Below, piece by piece: positions 3,373 to 19,148 of a stretch of DNA of 22,109 nt (positions within the stretch are counted from its first letter, which is position 1; each line of letters starts with the position of its first letter). Source of the DNA: a virus. The notes beneath the pieces were generated by a model that saw only the letters and a list, made by a program, of their open reading frames with translations, ran no database searches and was not told the origin of the DNA. The DNA lies in the IMG/VR virus record IMGVR_UViG_3300036819_000337, positions 1 to 22,109 of that record. One strand, written 5' to 3'. The position numbers and the translations under genes were made by a program.

Positions 3373-3378
3373 TATTTA
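3373..3378 (-). promoter_or_regulatory. TAAATA box before 173-aa gene
   Basis: Leftward GCTAAATACCAC; the TAA is also the hub gene's stop. It lies 23 nt before ATG-TAG and 29 nt before the GTG. Confidence 0.35.
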
Positions 3379-5448
3379 GCGGTAGGTCGAGGCGGCAGCT
3401 TCTACCTCGACTCCCTGTATGTGCTGCCACACCGCTGCCGCCGGGATCGTGATGCGACCGCGCATGAACCGCGCGTCTACCCGGATAGGACATCCGCCAT
3501 AGGCATTCATCGCTACCGGGTCGCTGTAGACCACCGCATCCTCAAGACGGTTGCGGCTGCCGACGCTCACGGACGGTACGCCACCATCAACGATCGGCCG
3601 GGCCAACGTCGCGCGGGATCGCTTGCCCTCGGTAGGCTGGCCTTCCAACGTCTCTATCGTCGCGGCAAGGTTGGGGCCGGCGAAGGTTGACACCTGCCAG
3701 TCGGCATCAAAGGCTAGGAGGTACGGCTTGCCGCCCTGCCAGAACGGGGAGTCGAGTTCCGGGGTTAAGGTGTCAAGGGTGCCGAACTGGTCTAGCTGGT
3801 CCAGGCTGTACCCGGTGCTCAAACCCTGCCCCAGCCATGAAATGTTGATCCGGGCCATAGACCAACGGTTAAGCTGCCAATTGTAGACAAGTAGCCGGTT
3901 GGGGATGCCGCCCGACTCCGGGCCGCAATATGCCCACATAATGAGCCGGCCGGTCGGATCAGCACTACCTTGCGTTAGGTACAGGTAATCAATATCGACT
4001 CCATCGTCGGGGTCGCTAAAAAACCATTTCGCGATCTTGTTCGCAGAAATGAAAGATGGTGTATTTCCGTCGAATGCTACAAATCCTGACGAGCCGCAAT
4101 AGTAGCAGATTCCATTATTAACAACTACTGAGCGCGGCACCCTACAACCAACCGCACCTTGTGCAATCTGAAAGTCAAAGATGGCAGGACTACCGACATA
4201 GCGGCCGGTATAAACGCCATCATCTAGCAGGATCACAAGGTCGGCAGCTTGAAGATTTGAAGCGATACCTCGGATATGTCCAAGGTCAGACCGCAAGTCT
4301 TGTGCGTCGGATTGTACTTGTGCCGCCTCGGTTGATCCCAGGTCAGGCCAGTACGCGGCGTCACCAATGGCAGACCAATGCACCCGCTGCGGATAGTTGA
4401 TGCCGTCTGATGGTTCGGTGACGTTCGCCAACATGAGGAAGTTGCGAACGGTGCAGACGTACTTGCCGAATGGCGCCCGGTACCTGTTCAGCGGAGAGAA
4501 CTGGCGATCCGTGTCAATGTTCATGCATTGCGGAGGATCGTCGCCATTGGTCGCGATGATCGCGTTGCCGAAGGCCGTCATTGACCACGGATTGTAAGAC
4601 GTGGCCGTGTAGGAGATCGCCGAGCTTGTCGTTGCCGTGGTGGTCAGATTGAACGTGACGCCATCGCCAGTGCCGCCCGCGACCGTGACCGGGTTGTTAG
4701 GCTGGTCTGTGTAGTCGCCAGGGCGGGAGACGTGCGCTGTCAGCACTTGGCCGGTTGTGGCGTCTGTCAGCCATGTGAGATTGAACTGAGCGCCTGTGCC
4801 GGCGCCTCCGGTCACTGCCGCCGGGTTTGTCGGCTTGACGCTGTAATCGCCCTGCCGCGACAGATGGCATGTGACGATCGCGCCGCCGCCACCTACCGTA
4901 TCGACCGTGACCTGTGCGGCCGTCGTGAACGTGCCGCCGACAAGGGTCAGGATGTTGCCCGGTGCGTACCCGGTGCCATCGGCCGCGAATGCCGCCGTCT
5001 CGACGTGGTAGAGGGCCGGGCCTACGCTATCGATCGTGATTTGCGAGGTCGTGAAACTGGTAGGCCAAACGACGGTCACAATGTCGCCCGGCGCATAGCC
5101 GTGGCCGTGATTGACGGTCGCGAGCGCGGTCACGCTGTAATGGGTGTTGACGCCGGAAACGTCTACAAAGCCGGAATCACCCGTCTTGAACTGGTACAGC
5201 TTTGACTTGGTGCCGGTGATAATGTGCTCATTACCGTTGGCATTAAGGAAGCTGTAGAGGCCGAACGGTTCGTCTGGCAGCGCTGGAATAGGGTTGACGC
5301 TGCGATTGCCGGTAAAGGCAGTGAGCGACGGCAGCGGACCATAGGATTGCGATGTGAGCGGCACGACATTGCGTGCCACGGTCATGCCGGGGTTGTTGAA
5401 TGACGGTAAATCGGGAGTCCACTCTCCAAGTGGCAATGTTGCGGGCAT
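3376..5448 (-). CDS. P22 gp10-like tail hub / DNA stabilisation protein
   Basis: 690 aa. The central and C-terminal parts (FGKYVCTVRNFLMLANV, RVHWSAIGDAAYWPD, DLVILLDDGVYTGRYVGSP, GICYYCGSSGFVAFDG) resemble the P22 gp10 family, which forms the beta-propeller hub that closes the portal after DNA packaging and carries tail appendages. It starts MPATLPLGEWTPDLPSFNNPG, typical of the group. Residues about 105-275 are an inserted cassette of short beta modules: GYAPG at about 117 and 160, GDY at 200 and 244, and NPxxVxGGxGxGxxFNLT at about 208-225 and 252-269. The ATG overlaps the adaptor stop codon (TAATG), so translation is probably coupled; no Shine-Dalgarno is evident. Family assignment is by pattern recognition only. 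Confidence 0.75.
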   Translation of the reverse strand: MPATLPLGEWTPDLPSFNNPGMTVARNVVPLTSQSYGPLPSLTAFTGNRSVNPIPALPDEPFGLYSFLNANGNEHIITGTKSKLYQFKTGDSGFVDVSGVNTHYSVTALATVNHGHGYAPGDIVTVVWPTSFTTSQITIDSVGPALYHVETAAFAADGTGYAPGNILTLVGGTFTTAAQVTVDTVGGGGAIVTCHLSRQGDYSVKPTNPAAVTGGAGTGAQFNLTWLTDATTGQVLTAHVSRPGDYTDQPNNPVTVAGGTGDGVTFNLTTTATTSSAISYTATSYNPWSMTAFGNAIIATNGDDPPQCMNIDTDRQFSPLNRYRAPFGKYVCTVRNFLMLANVTEPSDGINYPQRVHWSAIGDAAYWPDLGSTEAAQVQSDAQDLRSDLGHIRGIASNLQAADLVILLDDGVYTGRYVGSPAIFDFQIAQGAVGCRVPRSVVVNNGICYYCGSSGFVAFDGNTPSFISANKIAKWFFSDPDDGVDIDYLYLTQGSADPTGRLIMWAYCGPESGGIPNRLLVYNWQLNRWSMARINISWLGQGLSTGYSLDQLDQFGTLDTLTPELDSPFWQGGKPYLLAFDADWQVSTFAGPNLAATIETLEGQPTEGKRSRATLARPIVDGGVPSVSVGSRNRLEDAVVYSDPVAMNAYGGCPIRVDARFMRGRITIPAAAVWQHIQGVEVEAAASTYR

Positions 5449-6089
5449 TATGGGTTGCCCGTGTCAGTGCGCATCGTGAGCGCGGCGCCACCAAGACGAT
5501 AACGCTGATCTTGTATCTTGATTCCGGCATATGCAGCTTCACGACGCTGCACGAACAACTGGAATCGTTGTACTGAGTTGTCCGCACCAAGGAATAGCTC
5601 GGCTTCCGCGAGACTTCCCCACAAGTAGGCGTCTGGAAACTGCGCCAAGAGCCAATTTGAGGCGTTGTCATCGGATAGAGCGGGGATCGCCTGCCAATAC
5701 TCGACGCGGATCGTGTAAACACCACCCGGTGTTGGTCCAAACCGAACATTTGACCCTTCAATGGTGTAGTTGAACGGTTGTGCGGCGTTATTCCATATCC
5801 ATGTGTCGTCGAGTTGTGTCGGCGGCAGGTAATCGAGCACAACAAGCGGCTTTGCAGTCGCGATTGATAGCTCACGCGGCGCCAAAAAGTCGTCTGGCAA
5901 CGCGTACGTGTCCGTACCGTTAACCGTCGTGATGTTATAGCTGATTTCTTGGTAGTGAGTGCGTAGCTGACGCGATGCATCCGCCTCGAACAAGGCAATG
6001 AGATCGCCTGTCGGGATTAGTGGATCGCCAGGACGGCCGAGCCACGAACAAATCGAGTCTTTGAGGTCGGAATATGATGATAGGCCCAT
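5448..6089 (-). CDS. Head-to-tail adaptor (P22 gp4 / tail tubular A type)
   Basis: 213 aa. It opens with SSYSDLKDSICSWLGRPGD and ADASRQLRTH, then YNITTVNGTDTYALPDDFLAPREL. This is the standard layout of phage adaptor proteins: an N-terminal helical bundle, then a TYALPDDF beta segment, then a C-terminal helical part (FPDAYLWGSLAEAELFLGAD). Such proteins form the ring that joins portal to tail hub, which fits its place between the capsid and gp10-like genes. There is no Shine-Dalgarno. TAAATA lies exactly 6 nt before the ATG, so the message may be leaderless. The stop overlaps the next start (TAATG). Length is normal for the group. Confidence 0.8.
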   Translation of the reverse strand: MGLSSYSDLKDSICSWLGRPGDPLIPTGDLIALFEADASRQLRTHYQEISYNITTVNGTDTYALPDDFLAPRELSIATAKPLVVLDYLPPTQLDDTWIWNNAAQPFNYTIEGSNVRFGPTPGGVYTIRVEYWQAIPALSDDNASNWLLAQFPDAYLWGSLAEAELFLGADNSVQRFQLFVQRREAAYAGIKIQDQRYRLGGAALTMRTDTGNP

Positions 6090-6095
6090 ACACGA

Positions 6096-6101
6096 TATTT
6101 A
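6096..6101 (-). promoter_or_regulatory. TAAATA box, 6 nt before adaptor ATG
   Basis: Leftward GAGTAAATATCGTGT then ATG. No Shine-Dalgarno and no TTGACA-like -35 is seen. The spacing puts the A of ATG at the expected transcription start of a -10-only promoter. Confidence 0.5.
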
Positions 6102-6117
6102 CTCGCGGGGCCTACCT

Positions 6118-6447
6118 TCACATTATCATGTGGTTGACGCGCAAATAGCGCCACTCATTCGAGTTGAGCAACCGCTTGACGGCCGGCATGTGGTTTTTGT
6201 TGTAGATGTCCACGCCGTACTTGGTCAGCCACAAATAAATGATGTCAATCGGGATATGGGCCATATGCACCATGTCACGATCTTTGTCCGTGTAGCCATT
6301 GGTGCCGTCATTCTGCCGTTTCTTGTTCGACTCGATGATAGACGACACGTCCGCAGTGCGGTGTATGTATGCCTTATCTTCGGTTTCGTCGTACTCAAAG
6401 GTCTCGACGGCGCCCGTTTCCGGGTCGGTAAGGAAATGCCTTTTCAT
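6118..6447 (-). CDS. Conserved small phage protein downstream of major capsid
   Basis: 109 aa from ATG at 6447 (MKRHFLTDPETGAVETFEYD). An in-frame extension upstream to 6483 would read through the terminator hairpin after the capsid gene, so the later ATG is chosen. The beginning, a short strand then DPETGAVETFEYDE, and the later DKDRDMVHMAHIPIDIIYLWLTKYGVDIYNK resemble small proteins found after the capsid gene in other podovirus-like phages. Their function is not known to me. The protein is rich in charged residues with no membrane segment. No clear Shine-Dalgarno was found. A role in virion assembly is inferred only from position. Confidence 0.65.
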   Translation of the reverse strand: MKRHFLTDPETGAVETFEYDETEDKAYIHRTADVSSIIESNKKRQNDGTNGYTDKDRDMVHMAHIPIDIIYLWLTKYGVDIYNKNHMPAVKRLLNSNEWRYLRVNHMIM

Positions 6448-6462
6448 GGTTGTGTGAAAGCG

Positions 6463-6492
6463 AAAACCCCCGGCTTTTAACACCGGGGGTTT
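6463..6492 (-). terminator. Intrinsic terminator after major capsid gene
   Basis: Leftward, a 10-bp stem (AAACCCCCGG at 6483-6492 with CCGGGGGTTT at 6464-6473) with a 9-nt loop ends in TTTT. It begins 8 bp past the capsid stop codon. It probably lowers expression of tail genes relative to capsid. Confidence 0.8.
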
Positions 6493-6499
6493 AAGTCGC

Positions 6500-7450
6500 T
6501 TAGGTCAGGTCAGCGATGACACCCGAAGATGCCTCGTTGCGTGCCTCAAGCGTGTACTCGGCGATCAGCATCTTTTTCTCGGCGTCGCCAGTCTTGGCAA
6601 GGTCTGCCATCTGAATCGGCCGGTACCAAGCCAGCGCCCAATAGTCGCTGTTCAGTACGAAGATTTCACGCGCCCGCATGAAGCGGTCGGGTACAATCTT
6701 CACTTCACCAAAGTCGCCGGAATACAGGTTCACACCCGCAACGATCTTTTCAGCCGTCGCTTCCATGAACCGGGTCGCGTTACCCGTGAACGCCGAGACA
6801 GTGCCCTTCTGACCGGGAGGGGTCAGCATGATGTCCGGCTGTTCGCCCGATGCCGTGAAAATGCCCGCGAGGACAGTCTTCAGCATGGCCTCGGTAACCG
6901 CCCGCTGCGTGCCATCAGTCGGCAAATCCGTACCGTCGCCGGTTGGGTTTGTGCCGGACGTGCCGCGCGACGAACTGGTTTTGATCCACGCGGACACACC
7001 CGCGAGAGTCGGCGCCGTGCCGGACGCTGCCGCTACAGCCGCTTGGCGATTCAGGCAGATGCCCTCAATGTCGCGGCGAAGCTCGCGGCCACGCTTTGCC
7101 ACCTGATAGGCCATTTCCGACTTGCGGCCGGCCTTTAGGGCGACTTCCTCAGTACCCGAGATAATCAGCGTCTTACGGCTGATCTGTGTCCGGTTACCCA
7201 GGCGTGCGGTTGGCGTGGTCTGCTGGTACGAAGTGATGTCATCACCCTGTACCTGTGCATTGGTGACATCGAATGCGGCGAGCGCATCGGTCTGCCATTC
7301 GTGCAGAGTGTTTGTTGCCTTCGCCTTCGCGATCGACGTGACAAACGGGGTTTCTGTTGGCGAGACGTTCCAAATTACGTCTGTAAGGTCTTCACGCAGA
7401 CCCTTTGCGTCATAGCTCATGAAAGTGTTAGTGATTGCGTTACCGGCCAT
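6500..7450 (-). CDS. Major capsid protein (SU10/DUF5309-like)
   Basis: 316 aa. Conserved features are SPTETPFVTSIAKAKATNTLHEWQTD (about residues 30-55), LGNRTQISRKTLIISGTEE (84-102), RGRELRRDIE, PDIMLTPPGQKG and the C-terminal MLIAEYTLEARNEASSGVIADL. These match the SU10-type capsid family (DUF5309), HK97-fold shells seen in kuraviruses and relatives. The gene directly follows the scaffold gene, as expected. Upstream, AGAGG (7465-7469) is placed 5 nt from an ATG that reads ATG-CCA-TAG (7451-7459), and the true ATG follows directly at 7450. A terminator lies just after the stop. A shorter homologue of this protein is encoded at 12744-13448. Confidence 0.88.
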   Translation of the reverse strand: MAGNAITNTFMSYDAKGLREDLTDVIWNVSPTETPFVTSIAKAKATNTLHEWQTDALAAFDVTNAQVQGDDITSYQQTTPTARLGNRTQISRKTLIISGTEEVALKAGRKSEMAYQVAKRGRELRRDIEGICLNRQAAVAAASGTAPTLAGVSAWIKTSSSRGTSGTNPTGDGTDLPTDGTQRAVTEAMLKTVLAGIFTASGEQPDIMLTPPGQKGTVSAFTGNATRFMEATAEKIVAGVNLYSGDFGEVKIVPDRFMRAREIFVLNSDYWALAWYRPIQMADLAKTGDAEKKMLIAEYTLEARNEASSGVIADLT

Positions 7451-7477
7451 CTATGGCATCTGTACCTCTTGTCAAAA

Positions 7478-8536
7478 TCATAGGATATTTTCGAGAAGCC
7501 TTGCGGCATCCCGTGTCGAGCCAGACCGTCGTAGCTGCTTGTACTGATCGTTGATTACCTTGTTCCGACTATCCTCACGAACTGGCGCAGCATTGGGCGT
7601 CATGAGACGTGGTGCCGGAGCACCTGTCTTTTTGCCTTTTGCAGATACGCGAGCCGCTTCCAACTTTTCCAATTGGGCGAGGCGAGCCATCGCACGCACA
7701 ATACGTGCATCGGTGACTCCATTGACTTCCTCATGGCTGAAACCGAGGTTTGACATGGTTGAACCAATGTCTTTGACCAAGGCGACCGCTTTTGACTGGT
7801 CCTTAAACTCCGGGACATACTCGACAAGCTGGTCATATTGATTGGCAAGGCGAGCCTGCATCTGCTGCTGTTGGTGCGCATTCTGTTGCGCCTCAACCTG
7901 CTGCATCTGCTGCTGCATGAATCCAACACGTTGACGAAGGCCGTCACGAACCGCTGATAGGCGGACATACTCGGCTGGATCGTCAGATGCCAGTTTCACC
8001 CAATTAACATTCTCAACCTGCTGAATCTCGGGGATCGTCAGGGTAATAAGCTGATTAAGTGTTTGTGCATACTGAGTCTGTACTTCACTCGCTTTCTGAA
8101 CATGTGCCTCTACGGCTTTCCGTTCGTCGGCAAGCTGTTGCATCCGTTGATTGATAGCCTTGTCCCGCTCACCTTCCCGGCGTGCAACAACATGCTGCAA
8201 ATCGAGTGGAAGTTCCTTGAACTTAGCCGCATCTTCGGCTGACCATGATTTCGGAGGTTCGACAATGGCCGGCTTTTCTTCCGGTTCGTCACCTACTTCG
8301 TCGGTCTCTTCGTCCGCGCTGGCAGAACTCTCGTCCTGTGCGTCGTCTTCTACCTCGTCCTCTGCATCGTCTGCATTGTCCGGGGTAAAACTTGTGTCCT
8401 CATACTCATCATCCGAGGCGTCGTCTGTTTGCGGCACAACATGACCTGAAAGGTCTAGCAGACCTTCGATATGTGCCGCCGCAGACCGCTCATCGGTTAC
8501 GGGAGGAAGTGATTCTGTTTTGCTTGTTTCAGCCAT
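7478..8536 (-). CDS. Scaffolding protein
   Basis: 352 aa. The N-terminal 100 residues are extremely acidic (runs of D/E between about 40 and 92). A KSWSAEDAAKFKELP motif follows, common in phage scaffolds (the 'W-xx-EDAAKFxELP' segment). Then come long Gln-rich coiled-coil helices (RQRVGFMQQQMQQVEAQQNA region) and a basic C-terminus (RLMTPNAAPVREDSRNK, QLRRSGSTRDAARLLENIL). Scaffolds of this type line the procapsid interior and leave before DNA entry; the basic tail would contact the capsid. The gene sits directly before the major capsid gene with a 27-bp gap, the usual order. TAAATA followed by GGTTTTACG precedes the ATG. Confidence 0.85.
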   Translation of the reverse strand: MAETSKTESLPPVTDERSAAAHIEGLLDLSGHVVPQTDDASDDEYEDTSFTPDNADDAEDEVEDDAQDESSASADEETDEVGDEPEEKPAIVEPPKSWSAEDAAKFKELPLDLQHVVARREGERDKAINQRMQQLADERKAVEAHVQKASEVQTQYAQTLNQLITLTIPEIQQVENVNWVKLASDDPAEYVRLSAVRDGLRQRVGFMQQQMQQVEAQQNAHQQQQMQARLANQYDQLVEYVPEFKDQSKAVALVKDIGSTMSNLGFSHEEVNGVTDARIVRAMARLAQLEKLEAARVSAKGKKTGAPAPRLMTPNAAPVREDSRNKVINDQYKQLRRSGSTRDAARLLENIL

Positions 8537-8545
8537 CGTAAAACC

Positions 8546-8551
8546 TATTTA
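8546..8551 (-). promoter_or_regulatory. TAAATA box before scaffold gene
   Basis: Leftward ATAAATAGGTTTTACG then ATG; the box lies 9 nt from the start. It shares TAAATAGG with the boxes before the 149-aa gene and terS. Confidence 0.45.
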
Positions 8552-8562: not shown

Positions 8563-9012
8563 TTAGTAGGGCTGTTTGGCTTGTGCCATGCGACGCTTGG
8601 CAGCTAGGTCCGCCTCGAAAATCTTGGCGCCGCCGACATACGCGCGGATCGCGCCTTGCACGTCCTTAAGGGCGGCTAAGCTCATGTGAGCGACACGCTG
8701 CGCCTCGATGTCACCACGGGGGGAGTTCTCCCATGCCAGCCGGTAGCGGGCCGCGACGGCGGCAAAGGCGGCAGACAACAGGGGATCGCTCAACAGGGAC
8801 TCCGCGCGCCGGCCGTTCAGCAGCCGGTCAGACGGGTCGAATGGCTGCGGCGGTTCCGGTGCTACGTCAGCGCCCCCGGAGGGTGCGGTGACTTCGTCAG
8901 CGCCCTCTTCCTCCGGCGCCGGGATCACATGCGGCGCGTCATCGTCAGCGGGGAGGTTGGCAAGCGCGGCGCCAACTGCGGCGCCAAATGGTTCGACTTT
9001 CTTTCTTGGCAT
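8563..9012 (-). CDS. Small morphogenesis-region protein, 149 aa
   Basis: The first about 75 residues are Pro/Ala/acid-rich and probably disordered (PADDDAPHVIPAPEEEGADE). Residues 75-149 form a helical domain (SDPLLSAAFAAVAARYRLAWENS, then GDIEAQRVAHMSLAALKDV, then IFEADLAAKRRMAQAK). The layout 'SDPLL..AF..v...y...We.sp.GD.eA' resembles small helical proteins that other phages encode between portal and scaffold. I know no proven function for them. It lies 9 bp after the portal gene and 26 bp before the scaffold gene. There is no good Shine-Dalgarno; TAAATA sits 6 nt before the ATG. Confidence 0.65.
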   Translation of the reverse strand: MPRKKVEPFGAAVGAALANLPADDDAPHVIPAPEEEGADEVTAPSGGADVAPEPPQPFDPSDRLLNGRRAESLLSDPLLSAAFAAVAARYRLAWENSPRGDIEAQRVAHMSLAALKDVQGAIRAYVGGAKIFEADLAAKRRMAQAKQPY

Positions 9013-9018: not shown

Positions 9019-9024
9019 TATTTA
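9019..9024 (-). promoter_or_regulatory. TAAATA box, 6 nt before 149-aa gene
   Basis: Leftward GGTTAAATAGGGTTT then ATG. The TAA is also the portal stop codon. Confidence 0.5.
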
Positions 9025-11166
9025 ACCAGCCGCACCGCCGCCATTCATGTTAGTGGCCGCAGTCAACACGTTGTTGTGCATGTCATTCTGCGCTGACATG
9101 ACATTACTGTGCATGTCATTGTTCGCTTTCATTTGCGCCGTCTGTATGGCGAGTTGTGCGCGGGATTGTTCGCGCATCTGTTCAAGCTGTATCTCATGCT
9201 GCGCCTGCATCGCGGCAATCTGCATCTGATGCTGCGCCATCTGCTGTTCCAATTGCTGCGAATGTGCCGCTTTCTGCTGTTCAACCTGCATGTCATTCTG
9301 CGCCTTGAACTGCGCAGCTTGAGCCTGTGCCTGTGCCTTCACCATTTCAGGGTCCGGCGGCTTTGGCTGCGGCGGCTGTTGTGGCGCCTGCGACGGGTTG
9401 GTAAAGAAGTCCTGCTTGTATCCGGCATTGGTCGTCAGCTTATGCACAACATCAAAAATGTTCTGCGCCGTAACAAGCGGACCTTGTACACCACCCTGTG
9501 CCCCAACAATCTGCTGTTGCACTTGTAGTATCTGCATTAGCTGTTGCGAGGCAGAGTCACGGTTGCCGGTGCCCAGGCCGACGCTACAACTGCACGACAT
9601 GGATTCCCGCCAGTCTTTCGGGTCCATGTTTACCCATTTGCCAGTGAGGCGGATCACCCGGCCGCGCTGCTGATGCCGGACCACCAAGCCAAGAATGCGC
9701 TGGCCTAGCTCGCGCACCTGTTCCGCGAAAATCCGCGCGATCAACTCGACACGTTGGCTCGCGGCTTGTTGCAGCATGGAAATGCCCTGCGCCGTATGCC
9801 GGTTGAGATCGTCGGGTGACAGCCCTTGGTTGTGCCGGTCAATGCCGGTGCGGAGTTCCGACGCTTGGTCGAGGTATTGAATGATGGGAAGCGTCTGGCC
9901 GGCCACGAACGGCACTTCAAGGGGCTGAATACCCTGGACATTCGCCACCCGCACAATGCCGCCCGGCCGAACCGTCAACAGGTCATCGTACGTCTCTGTC
10001 GTCGCCGACATTTCATCAACGATCATGCGCGGCGAGTTGGACAAATAGAGGTTGTCCAATACCTGCCGCAGCAACGTGCTCTTAATGGACTGCAAATCCA
10101 TCACAAGATCAGCTTCCGACAATCCATAGAACTTGCCAGGAACCGGAATCGGGCAGCACGCTACAATGGGAACTTCGTCAACAAGCTCATTGGAGAAGAT
10201 GATTTGTCCGGCGCCGGCCGTCACAATGCGACGTAGCTCGGCAATACCATCACCATCATAGTCAACCGGGAGGTACGACTCTTCCAACCATACTTGGCGC
10301 ATGGCTTGGTCGGTGCGCTGGTCCATCGGCCATTCATCTTCGGGCGCGAACCGTTCAATGCGCTCCATATTGAACTCTTGGTCGTTGAAGCCTTGTGCTT
10401 CCTCGATCAAATCCTCATCAAAACCCATTTCGCGAAGGTCACTAATGCTCTTGAGAGCACGATGGCAGACGAAGTGCTTACCGTCTAATACAGTGCTTGG
10501 TGCCCGCCGGCTGACAAGCATTTCCTCCGGTACAACATGCTCAATCTTTACCCTGCCTTCGGTCTGCCATACGCGTATCTGAACGTCATGCAGCATTGGT
10601 GCGCCCGGTTCTGGCGCGTCCTCAGTGAACCACTGTAGGTTCGGGTCCGGGTTGGGATAGGTTTTCTCGGAAATAATCTCGACATCATCAGCTTGTGTGA
10701 TTTGCTGGTATTGTAGATCGTCCAACCCCTGATATGTGCTGGTACTGAACGTCCGTTCCTCATTCCAATAGACCTTGAGGAAACCAACTTTTTGTAGTAG
10801 CGCCGACGTGAAAAAGTCGTGCAGGATCATGAAACCGGGGTTGTCCCGCAACATGATGTAGTTGCAATAATCGGTCGCCTGTTCAGCCATTGCCTCTTCG
10901 CCGGGCTGATAGGGCTCAAACTCGAACACCTTGTCGCTGGCGAGGAAACAGCGCAGTAGCGCCGGCTTCACCCATTCAATGGTTTCGAGTACATTACGGG
11001 AAACTACTTGTGAGCGGCCTTCAATTTCGTTGCCGAATGGCTGGCCCATGTAGTAGTCGAGAGCCATGCGGCGCTCTTGTGACAGCATTCCACCGTCACT
11101 ACCCAATGCCGTGTTTATCTCACCCGCCAGGATGGCCTTTAGCTCGGTATCGTCCATCCTTGTCAT
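9022..11166 (-). CDS. Portal protein (P22-like)
   Basis: 714 aa, normal for large P22-type portals. Recognisable parts are RMALDYYMGQPFGNEIEGRSQVVSRNV near the N-terminus, then EWVKPALLRCFLASDKVFEFEP, LLQKVGFLKVYW, HVVPEEMLVSRRA, CCPIPVPGKFYGLSEADLVMDLQ, STLLRQVLDNLYLSNSPRM and SELRTGIDRHNQGLSPDDLN. The last about 115 residues are Gln/Met-rich coiled coil, the expected barrel/tunnel region. The portal ring sits at one vertex, passes DNA and docks terminase. Its ATG overlaps the upstream stop (ATGA); GGAGG in the upstream gene's end is 10 nt away, with an out-of-frame ATG in between. A second ATG three codons later is a possible start. Confidence 0.88.
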   Translation of the reverse strand: MTRMDDTELKAILAGEINTALGSDGGMLSQERRMALDYYMGQPFGNEIEGRSQVVSRNVLETIEWVKPALLRCFLASDKVFEFEPYQPGEEAMAEQATDYCNYIMLRDNPGFMILHDFFTSALLQKVGFLKVYWNEERTFSTSTYQGLDDLQYQQITQADDVEIISEKTYPNPDPNLQWFTEDAPEPGAPMLHDVQIRVWQTEGRVKIEHVVPEEMLVSRRAPSTVLDGKHFVCHRALKSISDLREMGFDEDLIEEAQGFNDQEFNMERIERFAPEDEWPMDQRTDQAMRQVWLEESYLPVDYDGDGIAELRRIVTAGAGQIIFSNELVDEVPIVACCPIPVPGKFYGLSEADLVMDLQSIKSTLLRQVLDNLYLSNSPRMIVDEMSATTETYDDLLTVRPGGIVRVANVQGIQPLEVPFVAGQTLPIIQYLDQASELRTGIDRHNQGLSPDDLNRHTAQGISMLQQAASQRVELIARIFAEQVRELGQRILGLVVRHQQRGRVIRLTGKWVNMDPKDWRESMSCSCSVGLGTGNRDSASQQLMQILQVQQQIVGAQGGVQGPLVTAQNIFDVVHKLTTNAGYKQDFFTNPSQAPQQPPQPKPPDPEMVKAQAQAQAAQFKAQNDMQVEQQKAAHSQQLEQQMAQHQMQIAAMQAQHEIQLEQMREQSRAQLAIQTAQMKANNDMHSNVMSAQNDMHNNVLTAATNMNGGGAAG

Positions 11167-11372
11167 GCATTTTCAACCTCCATAGCGGGGAGTGCTTTGT
11201 TGACAAGCGGCATGGCCGCTTTCGCGGCTTTCATCCGTCTGTCGAGCGACTGAGACGGGTCGCTGTAAACTTGGTGTGCTTGGAGAATCGTCAGTGCATT
11301 GCGCAGGTTAGCGATTTCTTGCTCAAGCGCCGCGAACCGCTGTTCAATGCGGATATGTTCACTAATACTCAT
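11163..11372 (-). CDS. Small coiled-coil protein between terL and portal
   Basis: 69 aa (MSISEHIRIEQRFAALEQE). Residues 5-35 form heptad-like helices (IRIEQRFAALEQEIANLRNALTIL, read in parts); a second helical part follows (RRMKAAKAAMPLVNKALPAMEVENA). No known domain is recognised. It overlaps the portal start by 4 bp, so the two are probably translated together. There is no Shine-Dalgarno; TAAATA is exactly 6 nt before the ATG, in a TAAATACGCGTCATGAG context nearly identical to that of the 66-aa gene at 15672. A packaging or assembly role is positional inference only. Confidence 0.65.
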   Translation of the reverse strand: MSISEHIRIEQRFAALEQEIANLRNALTILQAHQVYSDPSQSLDRRMKAAKAAMPLVNKALPAMEVENA

Positions 11373-11378: not shown

Positions 11379-11384
11379 TATTTA
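11379..11384 (-). promoter_or_regulatory. TAAATA box, 6 nt before 69-aa gene
   Basis: Leftward CTGTAAATACGCGTC then ATGAG. No Shine-Dalgarno. Confidence 0.5.
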
Positions 11385-11392: not shown

Positions 11393-12700
11393 TTAGACGA
11401 TGCCCTTGTTCGTGTAGTTGATTGCTTTCTTCACGGTGTTGCGGACACCGCTTGTCGCCCAATACCGCATGGCGTCGGCAGGGTGACTGCACCAGTCGTG
11501 AAAGGGGCGATCCTCAAATGTGTGCCGCTTGTCAGACCATACCCGGCGGTACTGTTGCAGCGCCGCGATCAGCTTCTTGGCCTTGGTGCGGTCAAACCAC
11601 ATCATCGGCAATTGAGTGCGCACCGCGTTGATGCCATCAGCGACGCTCTGTTGCGGCACCACCCGTGTAGGAATGCCGAGAGATCGTAGCGTCTCAATGC
11701 GACTGCGGCCGGTGCCTAGCTCCCTGACAGCCGCGTCATGCGGCACCACGTGCGTGCCATACATGTACTGCCGGCGCTGCAATTCTTTGGCATACCAATC
11801 CAGGCCAACGCCGCTGTTCTCAAGGTAGTCAATGACCCGGATTTCTTGGCCGGCCAGTTGAAAGAAAATGATGCTTGTCGAGTCGGATATACCCAAGTCC
11901 CAGGCCGTATGAACTTGTAACCGAGGATCATGCGGCACATTGGTAATGCGACTTTGTTCCTCTGCAATCTCCATTTCGCGGCCGTAGTAGGAACCGACAA
12001 TCGCACTCTGAAACGAACACATGTATTCTTGGTTGGAGGTCGCGGCGCCCTGGTCCTCGCCAAACTCCCGTATAAGCTCGCGCTTTTCGGTGGCGAGTTG
12101 TTCGGGCGTGAACACGGATGTCTTGGTCGCGGGGAGGAGTTCCGCAAACCATGCCGGATCATCCCTTGCCGCCTCATAAAACGTCGCCGCATGGTTTCGT
12201 CCTCTCGGCGTCGTGATGAACAGTGCCCAACCCGAATTTTCTTGTAGGATGGGTCGCAGATATGACCATGCATTCGGGTCCGCCAATGCGAACTCGCTGA
12301 ACACCAATCCGACCGGCGGCGATCCGACCAATGAGTTGTAATTGTCTGAGCCTACAAGCTGCCATGTCGAGCCATTAACAAACTCGATCATCATTTCGTT
12401 TTCGAGTTCACGCGCGACAATGCTTGCCGGGAATGCCTCGCGGATTCGCCTCAGACCAGTGTGCGGGTTGATGGCAGACCAAACCGACTTCCGGGCTTGT
12501 ACTTGTGATGGCAATAGATGCCAGTACCCGCCGGGCCGCTGCATCGCGGCACATGCCGTAAAATGCAAGGCGAGGTCGTCTTTGCCGGCACGTCTATGGG
12601 CAATCCAGACAGCACGTTTGCCGCCTTTGACAAGATAGTCCCATACGTTCTTTTGGTATTCGCGAGGTTCCCAATTGTTGGGAAGAGTAACTTCAAGCAC
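11393..12700 (-). CDS. terL: Terminase large subunit (ATPase/nuclease)
   Basis: 435 aa from a GTG start at 12700. Walker A is HRRAGKD at residues 35-41. The Walker B region is GLVFSEFALADPNAW (131-145), with Ser where many terminases have Asp. The coupling motif is ALFITTPRGRNH (159-170). The RNase H-like nuclease has acidic residues at D268 (TAWDLG), D322 (VVPHDAA) and D409 (SHPADAMRY). The enzyme cuts concatemeric DNA and drives it into the prohead through the portal. An ATG 5 nt earlier is in another frame. No Shine-Dalgarno is seen; TAAATA lies 4 nt before the GTG. The gene is separated from terS by the capsid-like gene, which is unusual. Confidence 0.92.
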   Translation of the reverse strand: MLEVTLPNNWEPREYQKNVWDYLVKGGKRAVWIAHRRAGKDDLALHFTACAAMQRPGGYWHLLPSQVQARKSVWSAINPHTGLRRIREAFPASIVARELENEMMIEFVNGSTWQLVGSDNYNSLVGSPPVGLVFSEFALADPNAWSYLRPILQENSGWALFITTPRGRNHAATFYEAARDDPAWFAELLPATKTSVFTPEQLATEKRELIREFGEDQGAATSNQEYMCSFQSAIVGSYYGREMEIAEEQSRITNVPHDPRLQVHTAWDLGISDSTSIIFFQLAGQEIRVIDYLENSGVGLDWYAKELQRRQYMYGTHVVPHDAAVRELGTGRSRIETLRSLGIPTRVVPQQSVADGINAVRTQLPMMWFDRTKAKKLIAALQQYRRVWSDKRHTFEDRPFHDWCSHPADAMRYWATSGVRNTVKKAINYTNKGIV

Positions 12701-12704: not shown

Positions 12705-12710
12705 TATTTA
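12705..12710 (-). promoter_or_regulatory. TAAATA box before terL
   Basis: Leftward CAATTAAATATGGC then GTG. The box overlaps an out-of-frame ATG. Confidence 0.4.
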
Positions 12711-12743: not shown

Positions 12744-13448
12744 TTATTCGAGATCGAAGATGGCGCCGTTCTTTGACTCGTCAAACGCTTCAAGGGTGTA
12801 CTGTCCCCTCACCAACGTCTTGTGGCCTTCCTCATCAGTGACATCGTGCCGAGTGATAGGCTCAAGCCACGCGACGCCCCACGTGCTCATGTCGAGCGCA
12901 TAGACGCGATCCGTCTTCATGAAACGCTCCCGTGCAACGGTCAGGCCAGCCTTGTCGCCGGCATCAGCGACAACCCGGTCATAGAGCCGGGCCGGCACCA
13001 ACAGCAGCGTCGCACTCGGTACCCGCTCCAATAGCTCATGCAGCATCGCCGGCCGGTACGGGCGCCGCTCACCAAGGCTTGTGCGGGTAATGCGACCGTC
13101 ACCCCACGGTAGGATGGAACTCGGCGCCTGTATGACATGGGTGGTCAGGAATGACGGGAGGCCGGCGGTTATCGGGGCGATCTTGCGATACTCACCCTTA
13201 CGGCTGGCTTGGTCGTTGAGCAACACCGTCTCAATGTCGCGACCAAGTTCAATGCACCGTTTCGACAGTTGTTCGGCAACCTCACTATCGGCGCCGTTCA
13301 TGAATGCCTTGCGGCTGATCTGGCAGTAATTGCCGAGGCTTGTCTTTTGTGCGGTTTCCCATTCGTGGAAATCGGCTAACGCTTTGTGGTGAGATACCGC
13401 CGACAAAAATGGACGGTCTGAATGTTGTAGAGAAAGTGCAGTGTTCAT
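12744..13448 (-). CDS. Shortened major-capsid paralogue between terS and terL
   Basis: 234 aa from ATG at 13448 (MNTALSLQHSDRPFLSAV). It is clearly homologous to the major capsid at 6500-7450: FHEWETA matches LHEWQTD, LGNYCQISRKAF matches LGNRTQISRKTL, CIELGRDIETVLLNDQAS matches RGRELRRDIEGICLNRQA, RERFMKTDRVYALDMSTWGVAW matches PDRFMRAREIFVLNSDYWALAW, and GQYTLEAFDESKNGAIFDLE matches the capsid C-terminus. It lacks about 22 N-terminal residues and about 24 residues after HEW, and the middle differs. All blocks are intact, with no stops, so it appears under selection. A start at 13655 would add a shadow-like stretch. Possible roles: minor capsid subunit, assembly modifier, or interference with rival phage capsids. 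Confidence 0.78.
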   Translation of the reverse strand: MNTALSLQHSDRPFLSAVSHHKALADFHEWETAQKTSLGNYCQISRKAFMNGADSEVAEQLSKRCIELGRDIETVLLNDQASRKGEYRKIAPITAGLPSFLTTHVIQAPSSILPWGDGRITRTSLGERRPYRPAMLHELLERVPSATLLLVPARLYDRVVADAGDKAGLTVARERFMKTDRVYALDMSTWGVAWLEPITRHDVTDEEGHKTLVRGQYTLEAFDESKNGAIFDLE

Positions 13449-13449
13449 A

Positions 13450-13704
13450 CTATTTGATATATCTCCAATTCTGCCAAAAAAAAGGCGGGTACCCCCGGAG
13501 CCACACTGACGTTGCAATGGGGGGTTGCCGGGGTGTCTCTGCCACCATATCCTGTGCCCCATGCGCCGGCCGGGTACTAGGTGGCGTCTTGTTGTTGCGT
13601 CTAGCGATCGTCCAAAGTTGTGCGAGCCTTGAACGTTCGTGCTCAATGTTATCAATGACTTAGCGAGCCATGCACTCGGCGCATAGCTTGGCGGGTTGTG
13701 CCAT
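13450..13704 (-). pseudogene. Small ORF interrupted by TAA (or +1 frameshift)
   Basis: One frame reads MAQPAKLCAECMAR, then TAA at 13660-13662, then about 69 coherent codons (VIDNIEHERSRLAQLWTIAR ... GYPPFFWQNWRYIK) to a TAG at 13450-13452, 1 nt before the capsid-paralogue ATG. That adjacency and the sensible residue composition suggest a real product. An alternative upstream piece starts at ATG in another frame (MPDNGTTRQAMRRVHGSLSH then TGA), and a +1 shift at CAT-TGA would join it to the DNIEHERSRL frame. The gene is therefore broken, recoded, or affected by a sequencing error. CxxC in the first version hints at metal binding. Function unknown. Confidence 0.45.
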
Positions 13705-13736: not shown

Positions 13737-14171
13737 CTACGAGTCGTCGCCTTCGTCGCTCGACTCCATGTCATCAGCTACAACCTCAGACACAATAGCG
13801 TCGCGAATGGTCGGCGCAGTCGTTATCTGTAATGTGCTGCCATCACTCAAGATTGCGTTGCGGTCTGAGAAATCGCGTATGACGACAGTCATTCGTTGTG
13901 CATCCGGGTCTTTTACCTCGACAGATGACAGACGCGGCGAACAATAAGGAAGCACCGTTTTCAGCATATCGAGGCGCGTTGCCTTGTCTTCGTTCGGGTC
14001 CCACATGATCGCCAAAGCAAAATCAAGTGGGTGCGGCGCGCCGTCTTCGCCTAACGTTTGCTTGCCTCGCTCTAGGAGTTCAAAGGCTAACTTAGCTGAT
14101 TTAATTGGATTTAATGGCCTACCAGCGCCGGTACGCTTACCGCCATGTGGCCTACCATTCCGTAACGTCAT
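13737..14171 (-). CDS. terS: Terminase small subunit
   Basis: 144 aa. The N-terminus NGRPHGGKRTGAGRPLNPIKSAK has the basic Gly/Arg-rich 'GGKRxGAGRP' signature common at the start of phage small terminases and DNA-binding phage proteins. A helical core follows (AFELLERGKQTL, HPLDFALAIMWDPNEDKATRLDMLKTVLPYC), and the tail is acidic (VVADDMESSDEGDDS). TerS recognises the packaging site and loads TerL. It is the first gene of the leftward virion module. A TAAATAGGG box lies 32 nt upstream of the ATG; no strong Shine-Dalgarno is visible. Moderate certainty, because the family is very diverse. Confidence 0.72.
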   Translation of the reverse strand: MTLRNGRPHGGKRTGAGRPLNPIKSAKLAFELLERGKQTLGEDGAPHPLDFALAIMWDPNEDKATRLDMLKTVLPYCSPRLSSVEVKDPDAQRMTVVIRDFSDRNAILSDGSTLQITTAPTIRDAIVSEVVADDMESSDEGDDS

Positions 14172-14203: not shown

Positions 14204-14209
14204 TATTTA
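14204..14209 (-). promoter_or_regulatory. TAAATA box upstream of terS
   Basis: Leftward GCGTTAAATAGGGATCAC, 32 nt from the terS ATG. No -35 match. Probable start of the leftward late transcript. Confidence 0.5.
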
Positions 14210-15288: not shown

Positions 15289-15305
15289 CAAAGTCGCTAC
15301 CTCAC

Positions 15306-15471: not shown

Positions 15472-15672
15472 CTACGCGCGTTTGGCAAGCACAAGACGCC
15501 GCATGTGTTTCGTGATCTTGTGCATTCGATCCGCAAGACGACACACACAACCCGGCGGTGCATCATAGGATGCACGCAATTGCTCTATGGTTACCCCGCA
15601 ATCGTGGCAGGCATCGTCTTTAGGGTCGCGGCATAGGGTACCAACAACAGACCAAAACTCGTCATTGCTCAT
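15472..15672 (-). CDS. Small Cys-containing protein, 66 aa
   Basis: MSNDEFWSVVGTLCRDPKDD, with Cys at 14, 22, 25 and two more in PPGCVCRLADRM, so a zinc-binding fold (CHDC and CVC pairs) is possible. The C-terminus is basic (MHKITKHMRRLVLAKRA). No family is recognised. It is transcribed leftward between two rightward genes; the recombinase promoter region lies divergently upstream. There is no Shine-Dalgarno. TAAATA is 6 nt before the ATG in nearly the same context as the 69-aa late gene at 11372, so it may be expressed late with the virion genes. Confidence 0.6.
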   Translation of the reverse strand: MSNDEFWSVVGTLCRDPKDDACHDCGVTIEQLRASYDAPPGCVCRLADRMHKITKHMRRLVLAKRA

Positions 15673-15678
15673 GACGGG

Positions 15679-15684
15679 TATTTA
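15679..15684 (-). promoter_or_regulatory. TAAATA box, 6 nt before 66-aa gene
   Basis: Leftward CATTAAATACCCGTC then ATGAG. No Shine-Dalgarno. Confidence 0.5.
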
Positions 15685-15713
15685 ATGGGTGAATCGCACC
15701 GACTCCAGCATCG

Positions 15714-15742
15714 TTGACATTGTCAGCATATCAGCGGATAAC
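15714..15742 (+). promoter_or_regulatory. Sigma70-type promoter of recombinase gene
   Basis: TTGACA (15714-15719), 17-bp spacer, GATAAC (15737-15742). Confidence 0.68.
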
Positions 15743-15747
15743 TGACA
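15721..15747. promoter_or_regulatory. Operator TGTCAG-N15-CTGACA at recombinase promoter
   Basis: Same inverted hexamers and spacing as at ardC; it spans the -10 element. Confidence 0.6.
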
Positions 15748-15748
15748 C

Positions 15749-15767
15749 GCGCGGCTGAACACCGCGC
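15749..15767 (+). promoter_or_regulatory. 5' UTR hairpin with CUGAACA loop (recombinase)
   Basis: Stem GCGCGG/CCGCGC with loop CTGAACA, beginning at the predicted transcription start. Stem bases differ from the ardC hairpin but pairing is kept. Confidence 0.58.
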
Positions 15768-15798
15768 AAGCGCAACCAACCCTACAGGATGACAACCC

Positions 15799-16488: not shown

Positions 16489-16493
16489 TGCCG

Positions 16494-16527
16494 TGACCCC
16501 AGGCTAGTTTGACCCCAGGCTAGTTTG
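16494..16527. repeat. Tandem repeat of TGACCCCAGGCTAGTT, 2 copies
   Basis: Exact 16-bp units at 16494-16509 and 16510-16525, immediately after the recombinase stop. Confidence 0.9.
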
Positions 16528-16562
16528 AAAAAAACCCTGGACATGAGGCTACATGTCCAGGG
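16528..16562 (-). terminator. Leftward terminator built from the CCTGGACATG repeat
   Basis: 11-bp perfect stem (CCCTGGACATG at 16535-16545 with CATGTCCAGGG at 16552-16562), 6-nt loop, then seven T in the leftward reading. It ends the replication transcript and may also protect the convergent recombinase. Confidence 0.85.
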
Positions 16563-16627
16563 AAGGCAGCAAACAACTTCGAGGAATGCGGCTCACAGGA
16601 AATGGTCAAACCTGCGACCCGCGTTAG

Positions 16628-16633
16628 TATTTA
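16628..16633 (-). promoter_or_regulatory. Orphan TAAATA box
   Basis: Leftward CCCTAAATACTAAC in non-coding DNA, with no leftward gene close by. It may start a non-coding RNA or be chance. Confidence 0.3.
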
Positions 16634-16772
16634 GGGTGGCGGCGCAAGGGCTGGTCACGGGGCCGGGCCGGGACACAAAGTCACCCTTGGTAATCGCGTC
16701 TATCCTAAAAGAGTTAACGACTCACCCTGGACACTTTCACCTAGACAAGACACCGGAATCCGGGTCCTAGAC

Positions 16773-16816
16773 CCTGGACAAGACACACACTTATAGTGTG
16801 TGTCTGTCTGTCCAGG
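16773..16816. repeat. Long inverted repeat with 19-bp arms
   Basis: CCTGGACA plus AGACACACACT, 3-nt centre TAT, AGTGTGTGTCT, a 3-nt GTC bulge, then TGTCCAGG. The inner 11-bp arms are perfect. There is no T run after it in either direction, so it is not an ordinary terminator. Confidence 0.75.
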
Positions 16817-16844
16817 TGTCCAGGTTGACCTTTTCGAGACATTT

Positions 16845-18053
16845 TTAGTTTGTCCTGGACATGTCCAGGCCATTTTGTCCAGGGTGGTTAACTGGCATTG
16901 GTGACGCGTCCAATGGTAGTGCCCAACCGTCTACACCAACCCGAAATTCGGCGAACTCGTCACGCTTGCGGTTTAGGGTGCGCTGCACGGAATCCTTTTT
17001 CTTGCCGTACTTGTCAGCGAGGTATTCCGCCAGCTTGCCAGTCGTGACGTAGCCACCATGACCGCGCCCCATCTCTGTCAGCGCGTCTAGGATCGTGTTG
17101 CGATCGATCTTGCCGGTTGTGGCTGCCTTGGCAACCTGTGCCATTTCGGTTTCGGTACACGGTTCCAACACCAAGCTATAGCCATCGTCGGTTTTGACCT
17201 GTCGCGATTTGAGCCGGTACTTGGCGCCGTCCGGTCCTACCTTTTGATAGCGTACCTCAACCGTGATGACATGTTCGTCGCTGTCGAGATCGTGGGCATG
17301 TTCGGTAATGTACATCACCGTATCAAATCCCGCTTCAAAGGCAGACGTACCGCGACCGCCGCGCGACGTGTCTTTGCCAAGATGGGCAACCGTCAACGTG
17401 GCGCCGCCAATCTCGTCTGTGATCCGTTTCAGCATGTTGAGGTATTTGCTCGCGGTGTGGGCGCGGTCCTCATCCTCGCCATTCAGGGCACGGTTGAGGG
17501 TGTCAATGACTGTCAGCTTGGCTTTACGGCCGGCGCCTAACCACCCTTTGATGTCTGCGATGGCTTGGTCAACAACGGCCGGTTGGTTCACATAGGGTGC
17601 GCCGTGGGCAAAGATGATGTTGTCCACTTCGTAGGGTAGGAACTCATGGGCAATTTCCCATGCGCATGAGCGATTTTTCACCACGTCATCGTGACCTTCG
17701 CCAGCGAAGTAGACGACGGGTCCGGGTTCGATCACGGGCAGCGATCCGAACGCCTTGAGGGCGGTTGCGATGGCATAGGACAGGTCCAGTGCCAGGAAGC
17801 TCTTGAGGAAACTCTTAGGCGCGTAGAGGGCGTTGTGGGTGTCTTCCTGCAACAGCCCTTCGATCATATATTTGGGTGGTGGCGCGGCCTTGTCATGTTG
17901 CCGCGTCCTGAACATGCTTTTGACCGGCGCCTCGCGTTTTGGTTCGTCTTCCGGTGGTGCGAAATCGTCGTGTTCAAAGTCAAAGTCGTCTCTGAATGCG
18001 TGCCGTAGGTCGTCATCAATCTTTTGGTTGATATTGTCGTCGTTGTTGAGCAT
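16845..18053 (-). CDS. RepA-like replicative helicase/ATPase (AAA_25 type)
   Basis: 402 aa. The first 60 residues are acidic and probably disordered. The ATPase core has a Walker A-like NALYAPKSFLKSFLAL (about 75-89), where both usual glycines are replaced but K84-S85 remain, then VVYFAGEGHDDVVKNR (113-128), Walker B LTVIDTLNRAL (180-190), and TLTVAHLGKDTSRGGRGTSAFEAGFDTV (219-246), all typical of RSF1010 RepA-like hexameric helicases. A C-terminal part (HGGYVTTGKLAEYLADKYGKKKDSVQRTL) looks like a winged helix. It should unwind DNA or load replication proteins at an origin. The only start is ATG at 18053, far (18 nt) from GAGG. Its 3' end contains three iteron copies. Confidence 0.82.
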   Translation of the reverse strand: MLNNDDNINQKIDDDLRHAFRDDFDFEHDDFAPPEDEPKREAPVKSMFRTRQHDKAAPPPKYMIEGLLQEDTHNALYAPKSFLKSFLALDLSYAIATALKAFGSLPVIEPGPVVYFAGEGHDDVVKNRSCAWEIAHEFLPYEVDNIIFAHGAPYVNQPAVVDQAIADIKGWLGAGRKAKLTVIDTLNRALNGEDEDRAHTASKYLNMLKRITDEIGGATLTVAHLGKDTSRGGRGTSAFEAGFDTVMYITEHAHDLDSDEHVITVEVRYQKVGPDGAKYRLKSRQVKTDDGYSLVLEPCTETEMAQVAKAATTGKIDRNTILDALTEMGRGHGGYVTTGKLAEYLADKYGKKKDSVQRTLNRKRDEFAEFRVGVDGWALPLDASPMPVNHPGQNGLDMSRTN

Positions 18054-18077
18054 TGGTGTGTTTTGAAAGAACCTCGT

Positions 18078-18761
18078 TTAAGTTATGTTGTGCTGCTGTT
18101 TCTTGTGGAATACGAAGCGCGCCAATTCCTTGACGCAGCGGTCGCGTTCTTCGTTGCTATCAAGGTTGTGCCAGTCTGCCGGTTGATCGTCGCCGAAATA
18201 GTCACCAAACTTCATGTCGCGTTCGATAAACCAACGAAGTTCGTTTTTCAGATCGAGCCATCGTTGCAGGGCAGCGCGAGCCGCAATCGACAATGGCGCC
18301 GCGCGTGCGAGGTCGCGCCACACCATGACCAAGCCGACAAGCGGCGTATAGGCGTCGTCAACTAGGGAAGGGTTGGCGTCTATGGCTGCCGCCAGTGCCG
18401 CTATCTTGGCGTCTGTACGCGGTATTGCCCGCCGTTCTGCCTCTAGCCTGCCCCGGTACTGAACACGCTCAAAATCGTCTAGCAGGCGTCGCCATTCGGC
18501 CGGGTCCGGGTTTTGATCCCAAGCCAGGATGCCGACTAACAAATCGTGGTCGGGATGATCGTCGCGTACCGAACCGATACGCTCGGCAAGCCGGAGGATT
18601 TGTCGTCCGGTTTCTTCGTCTCGCAATGTTTGGAGCCGGTGCTGTTCATCGTCTGTCAGCTTGGGTTTCTGTGACAGGGAGTACCGCGTAAATGCATCGC
18701 GGAGTTCCGGCGCCAGACGTTGAAATGTGGGGGCGTTCGACCTAAATATGGTAGTAGTCAC
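18078..18761 (-). CDS. Unknown 227-aa protein of the replication operon
   Basis: GTG start at 18761 (MTTTIFRSNAPTFQRLAPEL). Mostly helical and charged, with ELRDAFTRYSLSQKPKLTDDEQHRLQTL, LRLAERIGSVRDD, DPAEWRRLLDDFERVQYRGRLEAERR and a C-terminal HNLDSNEERDRCVKELARFVFHKKQQHNIT. No family is recognised. It lies directly upstream of the RepA-like gene with a 24-bp gap, so a replication accessory role is plausible but unproven. GGAGG (18774-18778) is 5 nt from an ATG-TAG pair (18763-18768); the GTG comes 1 nt after that stop. A 12-codon ORF ends at the same TAG. Confidence 0.65.
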   Translation of the reverse strand: MTTTIFRSNAPTFQRLAPELRDAFTRYSLSQKPKLTDDEQHRLQTLRDEETGRQILRLAERIGSVRDDHPDHDLLVGILAWDQNPDPAEWRRLLDDFERVQYRGRLEAERRAIPRTDAKIAALAAAIDANPSLVDDAYTPLVGLVMVWRDLARAAPLSIAARAALQRWLDLKNELRWFIERDMKFGDYFGDDQPADWHNLDSNEERDRCVKELARFVFHKKQQHNIT

Positions 18762-18762
18762 T

Positions 18763-18801
18763 CTACATCCTAACCTCCGTGTTTTGGTGTTGTGTGGTCA
18801 T
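18763..18801 (-). CDS. Possible 12-residue leader peptide MTTQHQNTEVRM
   Basis: ATG at 18801 with GGAG 7 nt upstream; it ends ATG-TAG 1 nt before the GTG of the 227-aa gene, and it contains that gene's Shine-Dalgarno. Translation of the peptide could control or couple the next start. Short, so uncertain. Confidence 0.35.
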   Translation of the reverse strand: MTTQHQNTEVRM

Positions 18802-18896
18802 CTAAAATCTCCAAGTGGTGTTGTGGGTTTTGGTGTTGTTGGGTCAAGGTGTAACCGGATCGAGAGAAATCTTGATCCGGTTTTTTCATGTTCTAC
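18802..18896. other. Short gap with GT-rich direct repeats
   Basis: Imperfect copies of GTTTTGGTGTTGT (near 18781 and 18827) and a hairpin at 18853-18882. No gene is seen. Confidence 0.5.
18853..18886 (+). terminator. Rightward terminator-like hairpin
   Basis: AACCGGATC/GATCCGGTT stem, 12-nt loop, then TTTT (rightward). Both neighbours are leftward, so it would stop antisense transcription or act leftward as an attenuating hairpin. Confidence 0.6.
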
Positions 18897-19088
18897 TTAC
18901 TCGCCACGACTGAGGCGGCGTTCGACTTCCTGTGAGTCGTAGAACTTACGATTTCCGATTTTGATGGCTTGTGGCATCAGGCCACGCTTCAACCACGCAT
19001 AGTATGTCTGCTTATGGATTTTCGCCCATTCGCAGATGTATGTCGGCGACCAATAGGTGCGGCCGTCCATTTCCAGTATCCGTTGCAT
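18897..19088 (-). CDS. Small HTH DNA-binding protein (excisionase/MerR-like)
   Basis: 63 aa. YWSPTYICEWAKIHKQTYYAWLKRGLMPQAIKIGNRKFYDSQEVERRL (read in parts) has the layout of AlpA/excisionase winged helix proteins: helix, turn, recognition helix (KQTYYAWLKRG), then a wing leading to IKIGNRKFY and a final helix. Such proteins regulate transcription or direct recombinases. It is the first gene of the leftward replication operon, so it could autoregulate it, bind the iterons, or be the repressor for the paired TGTCAG operators. A TTGACA/TAAATA promoter lies 32 nt upstream. AGAGG is 14 nt before the ATG. Confidence 0.75.
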   Translation of the reverse strand: MQRILEMDGRTYWSPTYICEWAKIHKQTYYAWLKRGLMPQAIKIGNRKFYDSQEVERRLSRGE

Positions 19089-19120
19089 TTCCCTGTGTAA
19101 AACCTCTTACGCTGATGGTC

Positions 19121-19148
19121 TATTTATCCCTGTCTGCGCAAGTGTCAA
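19121..19148 (-). promoter_or_regulatory. Promoter TTGACA-N16-TAAATA of replication operon
   Basis: Leftward -35 TTGACA (19143-19148), 16-bp spacer, TAAATA (19121-19126). It is the only TAAATA box with a clear -35. The box is 32 nt from the ATG, the same distance as at terS. Confidence 0.6.

Follow-up and report, generated by a model that had tools for sequence, protein, structure and literature searches.

In the late transcription system of phage T4, where gp55 acts with gp33 and the gp45 clamp, promoters have a lone AT-rich -10 element, TATAAATA, and the late genes usually carry Shine-Dalgarno leaders. The promoters read by the sigma factor gp36 of phiEco32 have, according to PMC8948821, a single element, tAATGTAtA, with transcription starting 6-8 nucleotides (nt) downstream, while the late promoters of phiKZ, as quoted in PMC5312081, possess only a minimal TATG near the start, the G being the start itself. 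Leaderless mRNAs, for their part, are common in alphaproteobacteria, with 375 in Caulobacter and 171 in S. meliloti according to PMC4117421. Here we analyze a virus fragment of 22,109 bases, IMG/VR record IMGVR_UViG_3300036819_000337, over its full length, which is the entire public record (hereafter the window), and examine the hexamer TAAATA, which recurs in one direction at the boundaries of its leftward virion genes. By examining the distribution of this hexamer in the window and in two related phages—assisted by an analysis of start codons and terminators—we consider it likely that TAAATA is the whole core of a class of single-element promoters, often giving leaderless mRNAs and read by a phage-specific factor.

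Enrichment and conservation of TAAATA

TAAATA occurs ten times leftward and once rightward in the window, where an order-2 Markov model predicts 1.0 and 1.2 copies, respectively. A recount found all of these copies at the positions reported in an earlier note on this DNA, which had been made from the letters alone; the sole rightward copy (18743-18748, plus strand) lies antisense within gene 18078-18761 and is taken as chance. The DNA between leftward genes (2,092 nt in total) contains ten sense and no antisense copies, compared with a mean of 0.58 and a maximum of 4 in 2,000 dinucleotide-preserving shuffles of the same intergenic DNA. That note had also placed the leftward copies at gene boundaries or in noncoding DNA, and indeed all ten are intergenic or begin on the stop codon of the upstream gene, the TAA of the hexamer doubling as that stop at 3373 and 9019. 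The intergenic DNA is comparatively AT-rich (GC 0.51), and other AT-only hexamers occur at most 4 times each in it. The strand bias extends beyond the window, as the full contig of one relative, L188 (34,337 bases), carries 16 gene-sense and 2 antisense copies.

The two relatives are distant from the window: L188 is 46-48% identical in the portal and 57% in the major capsid protein (MCP), and L165 is 52-53% identical in the portal and 53% in the large terminase (terL). The layout in which the hexamer overlaps the portal stop codon and precedes an ATG by six nucleotides (N6-ATG) is identical in the window (9019) and L188 (12125), and the N9-ATG spacing before the scaffold gene is likewise kept (8546 in the window, 12512 in L188). 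Before the small gene that follows terL the spacing is N6 in the window (11379), N5 in L165 (9428) and N5 in L188 (9674), and before the terS gene it is 32 nt (14204), 43 nt (7298) and 31 nt (6423) in the same order. TAAATA is found at the boundary before the adaptor gene in both the window (6096) and L188 (15818), with differing spacing, and upstream of terL in L165 as in the window. Other boundaries lack it in both the window and L188, namely those of the portal, the MCP, the MKR-type gene and the 3376-type gene; altogether, presence or absence agrees between these two phages at 9 of 10 orthologous boundaries (P = 0.024). Six of the seven copies in L165 precede genes in the sense orientation, one of these six being on the other strand. 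Conservation is confined to the hexamer: among 31 sense-strand sites of the three phages, examined from -50 to +25, the best flanking column reaches 0.33 bit, and even the two positions directly ahead of the hexamer show no conservation.

Across the SU10-type family at large, for which loci L001-L187 of at least 9 kb and selected later loci were covered, only L165 and L188 show enrichment of TAAATA. L095, L121 and L149 have raised counts, but no spacing pattern among the contexts listed. The class is lineage-restricted, since some relatives nearly as close as these two, or closer, in the MCP have no copy.

Spacing to start codons and terminators

Distances from the hexamer to the start codon were compiled for 57 curated starts in the three phages and are two-peaked: TAAATA lies 4-9 nt before 16 starts, 10-23 nt before none, and 24-43 nt before nine. 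Among hexamers whose last base falls 4-10 nt before these starts it is the most frequent, with 16 genes against at most 4 for a Shine-Dalgarno hexamer, and a Shine-Dalgarno core is present at 1 of the 16 proximal sites, 6 of the 9 distal sites, and 23 of the 32 genes that have no TAAATA. A promoter of leaderless mRNAs would have its -10 element roughly 6 nt ahead of the start codon and no Shine-Dalgarno sequence, a geometry seen in 16 genes (N4 to N9) across the three phages. Given nine distal sites, the empty zone of 10-23 nt has P = 0.023; its interpretation as the range in which leaders would be too short for a Shine-Dalgarno sequence is suggestive, not proof.

In the window, where all of these sites are on the minus strand, the exact arrangement TAAATA-N6-ATG occurs at four of them: 15679-15684, before a 66-amino-acid gene (15472-15672); 11379-11384, before the small gene 11163-11372; 9019-9024, before 8563-9012; and 6096-6101, before the SU10-type adaptor gene (5448-6089). 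The copy at 12705-12710 stands N4 before the GTG of terL (11393-12700), and that at 8546-8551 stands N9 before the ATG of the scaffold gene (7478-8536). At greater distances are the copy at 14204-14209, 32 nt before the start of a terS-like gene (13737-14171), the copy at 3373-3378, which overlaps the stop of 3376-5448 and is 29 nt upstream of the GTG that starts 2822-3343, a gene with an AAGAGG Shine-Dalgarno sequence, and the copy at 19121-19126, which has a perfect TTGACA 16 nt upstream and lies 32 nt before the start (19088) of a helix-turn-helix (HTH) gene that also has an AAGAGG Shine-Dalgarno sequence.

The hexamer is also found in relation to intrinsic terminators. Four copies, at 5195 and 9674 in L188 and at 6820 and 7298 in L165, lie 6-16 nt after one, and a gene so placed needs a transcription start there, as it would otherwise be cut off. 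Four further copies are orphans: a terminator comes 93, 95, 159 or 294 nt after them with no sizeable open reading frame (ORF) between, and these units are predicted to be small RNAs. The orphan of the window (16628-16633, minus strand) has no start codon in range and a strong terminator ending 93 nt downstream; the small RNA predicted from it, of about 98 nt (16524-16621, minus strand), would lie between this copy and the terminator hairpin at 16562-16535. Fold z-scores of three orphan units, terminator hairpins included, are -4.6 (the unit at 16524-16621), -5.0 and -6.7. Separately, in the region 6449-6490, gene 6118-6446 starts directly after a terminator behind the capsid gene, with neither TAAATA nor a Shine-Dalgarno sequence.

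A probable single-element promoter and its alternatives

As a promoter, TAAATA would act as a lone -10-like hexamer that needs no -35 element and is read in one direction, with transcription starting some 6-8 nt downstream, in front of the majority of virion genes and of some small RNA units, and presumably late in infection. Starts at that distance would leave the proximal class leaderless and mean leaders of at least about 17 nt in the distal class: hexamers 4-9 nt before a start codon would yield mRNAs whose first base is at or next to the AUG, with no need of a Shine-Dalgarno sequence, and those at 24-43 nt would yield a normal short leader, usually with one. The reader of the hexamer may be a phage sigma factor too diverged to recognize, or the host RNA polymerase together with a phage co-factor, for example a small HTH protein.

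The strongest competitor, which we nonetheless regard as improbable, is that UAAAUA serves translation as an AU-rich ribosome-binding stretch replacing the Shine-Dalgarno sequence, with transcription coming from elsewhere. Sixteen genes do carry the hexamer in the Shine-Dalgarno place and lack such a sequence, and the fixed N5, N6 and N9 spacings to the start codon would suit this role; the nine sites at 24-43 nt, however, mostly have a Shine-Dalgarno sequence of their own, at least four copies have no downstream gene start, four stand directly after terminators, ordinary Shine-Dalgarno sequences serve many genes of these phages, and it is the exact hexamer that recurs rather than general AU-richness.

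The post-terminator and orphan patterns, unexpected for a ribosome-binding element, are not predicted by RNA processing either. A single-strand endonuclease that cleaved one long late transcript, running leftward, at UAAAUA to leave monocistronic and partly leaderless mRNAs would fit the strict sense bias, the intergenic position and the nearness to start codons. It leaves the post-terminator copies and the terminator-ended orphan units unexplained, no candidate nuclease was found, and the perfect -35 sequence at 19121 would be a coincidence; we rate this explanation as very unlikely.

Equally hard to credit is that these are weak host sigma-70 promoters with TAAATA as their -10 box and no phage-specific factor. 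The host RNA polymerase must serve if the phage has none, and the arrangement TTGACA-N16-TAAATA at 19121 is of this form. In agreement with the earlier note, which had seen no -35 element at any other site, TTGACA sought 14-19 nt upstream is matched 6/6 at 19121 and at most 4/6 at the other nine window sites, and a host sigma-70 -35 hexamer at 16-18 nt is present at 19121 only. The nine other window sites and those of the relatives have neither a -35 element nor a TG extension, TAAATA matches TATAAT at only 3/6 positions, and the other AT-only hexamers of the same intergenic DNA show no such abundance. The perfect TTGACA does speak for a -10 box role of the hexamer. Chance or composition, to which an A/T hexamer in comparatively AT-rich DNA might be ascribed, has a negligible probability given ten copies against 0.58 expected, none antisense, and the retention of the hexamer at orthologous boundaries between phages whose proteins are about 50% identical, by which the relatives already refute it.

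Several points weigh against the single-element promoter that we favor. The case is inferred from sequence throughout, and the pattern is seen in three phages only, with gene starts curated by hand, and the terminator, distal and orphan groups are small. L268 (MCP 58% identical, GC 66%), one of the relatives nearly as close as L165 and L188 or closer in the MCP, has no TAAATA at all, and one L188 copy lies inside the MCP gene. The terL site (N4-GTG) requires a start distance shorter than 6. Pasting TAAATA into other genes gives a Shine-Dalgarno score of -2.3 kcal/mol, compared with -1.4 observed; the low score of the proximal class arises largely because the hexamer fills that place, and the absence of Shine-Dalgarno sequences there is mostly positional exclusion. 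Finally, the window genes scanned with PHROGs and Pfam included neither a recognizable sigma factor nor a recognizable RNA polymerase, the genome being a fragment.

The same holds for the early region of the 34-kb relative L188, apparently a complete region given that tail genes lie on either side of it; the gp55-like sigma factor or RNA polymerase entertained in the earlier note was thus looked for in the window and in this relative, and none was recognized. For gp55 in particular, there is no sigma factor among the PHROGs and Pfam matches of the genes scanned in the window and L188 fragments, gp33 and gp45 not having been searched separately. Searches with gp36 and with Sigma70_r2 were empty in the fragments G000, G001 and G002; against Sigma70_r2 even gp36 reaches no better than E = 0.002, so a diverged gp36-like sigma could be missed. 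Of the genes that belong to neither the packaging nor the virion module, a single one is common to the three records, of which L165 and the window are partial. It encodes the small HTH protein, at 18897-19088 in the window, and there it is the gene whose TAAATA has the full -35 sequence. That this protein activates TAAATA promoters is speculation.

Other features of the window and its relatives

The portal, capsid and adaptor proteins of the window match SU10-type families (PF23899, E = 4.5e-204; PF17236, E = 4.3e-93; PF24175, E = 2.1e-34), and by these matches its virion genes are of the SU10/phiEco32 kind, not that of T4. The main capsid gene is 6500-7450, and a second SU10-type capsid-like gene (12744-13655, E = 2e-17) lies between terS and terL. 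The host is probably an alphaproteobacterium, a low-confidence assignment made because the nearest matches of an ArdC-type anti-restriction protein are from alphaproteobacterial plasmids (59%) and those of a resolvase from Methylobacterium and Bradyrhizobium. Acetobacter phage phiAX1 has a terL with 57% identity to that of the window. No host was found through terL in genome contigs, and a portal profile search found prophages at 31-39% identity, without TAAATA.

Three window genes have a start-stop ORF just before their assumed real start (3343-3360, 7450-7475 and 18761-18780), in which a strong Shine-Dalgarno sequence about 5 nt before an ATG is followed at once by TAG; the arrangements are ATGTAG-GTG, ATGCCATAG-ATG and ATGTAGA-GTG. 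The use of TAG as a sense codon in the window was ruled out, as TAG is the stop codon of four genes and occurs in frame within none. The intergenic region 16530-16850, which adjoins a RepA/AAA-type gene, has many CCTGGACA/TGTCCAGG inverted repeats and is a possible replication origin. The terL gene of L188 contains, at 8130-8168, an in-frame insert of 36 nt between the GGC and GGT of the Walker-A codons, and this insert has a TAG in frame within a 12-bp hairpin (-24 kcal/mol). No other IMG/VR contig was found to contain the hairpin core. The layout resembles the bypassing of T4 gene 60, and a broken gene or an assembly error is also possible. The predicted fold of the early protein 18078-18761 has a pLDDT of 47, too low to use, and an Rfam scan gave a single sub-threshold match that is irrelevant.

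Comparison with known systems

We judge the chances to be evenly balanced that, in this phage lineage, a bare six-base promoter and an unrecognized factor drive virion genes and small RNAs, the virion mRNAs being systematically leaderless and having starts of their own. If so, the class would be among the shortest of phage promoters, leaderless translation would be the rule for many virion genes, 5' ends would be predictable to the base, and a specificity factor of an unrecognized kind would be indicated. It would also offer a sequence-only route to late promoters in uncultured phages, through a sense-biased hexamer, a two-peaked start distance, and a terminator just upstream. The papers searched, a limited open-access set, did not describe a bare hexamer used in a single direction together with leaderless virion genes, which proves little, and of the two papers whose titles or abstracts join TAAATA, phage and promoter, neither deals mainly with phages.

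The leaderless mRNAs of alphaproteobacteria (Caulobacter, Sinorhizobium) resemble the proximal class in starting at the first AUG base without a Shine-Dalgarno sequence, but they belong to host genes, and no lone TAAATA element is described for them in the text consulted (PMC4117421). The late promoters of phiKZ, from what is quoted of them, share a minimal element close to the start; they differ in their motif, in their dependence on a multisubunit RNA polymerase of the phage, and in belonging to a jumbo phage.

With T4 late promoters the window shares a lone AT-rich -10 element, TAAATA being the last six letters of TATAAATA, and the lack of a -35 element at 9 of 10 sites. The octamer itself, however, has no copy in the window and one in L188, and T4 late genes differ in usually having Shine-Dalgarno leaders. 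TAAATA is thus like T4 late promoters by analogy and not a member on evidence. Of the T4-like, -10-only late system proposed in the earlier note, the single-element promoter for the leftward virion module survives, kept in relatives and the best-supported reading; the T4 link is not supported, the octamer being absent from the window, the two preceding bases unconserved and gp55 unrecognized. The earlier note made no mention of the spacing to start codons or of the main consequence, that leaderless mRNAs would come from many of these promoters. The middle and late promoters of phiEco32 gp36 (Kuravirus), the nearest relative in which a single-element promoter has been studied, also have one element without a -35 and stand before virion genes of the SU10/phiEco32 type. 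They differ in sequence, as tAATGTAtA is not enriched here (one-mismatch copies number 1 in the window and 3 in L188, within chance), and leaderless geometry is not reported for them in the text consulted (PMC8948821). Because the virion genes of the window are of the SU10/phiEco32 kind, gp36 of phiEco32 is a nearer mechanistic precedent than T4.

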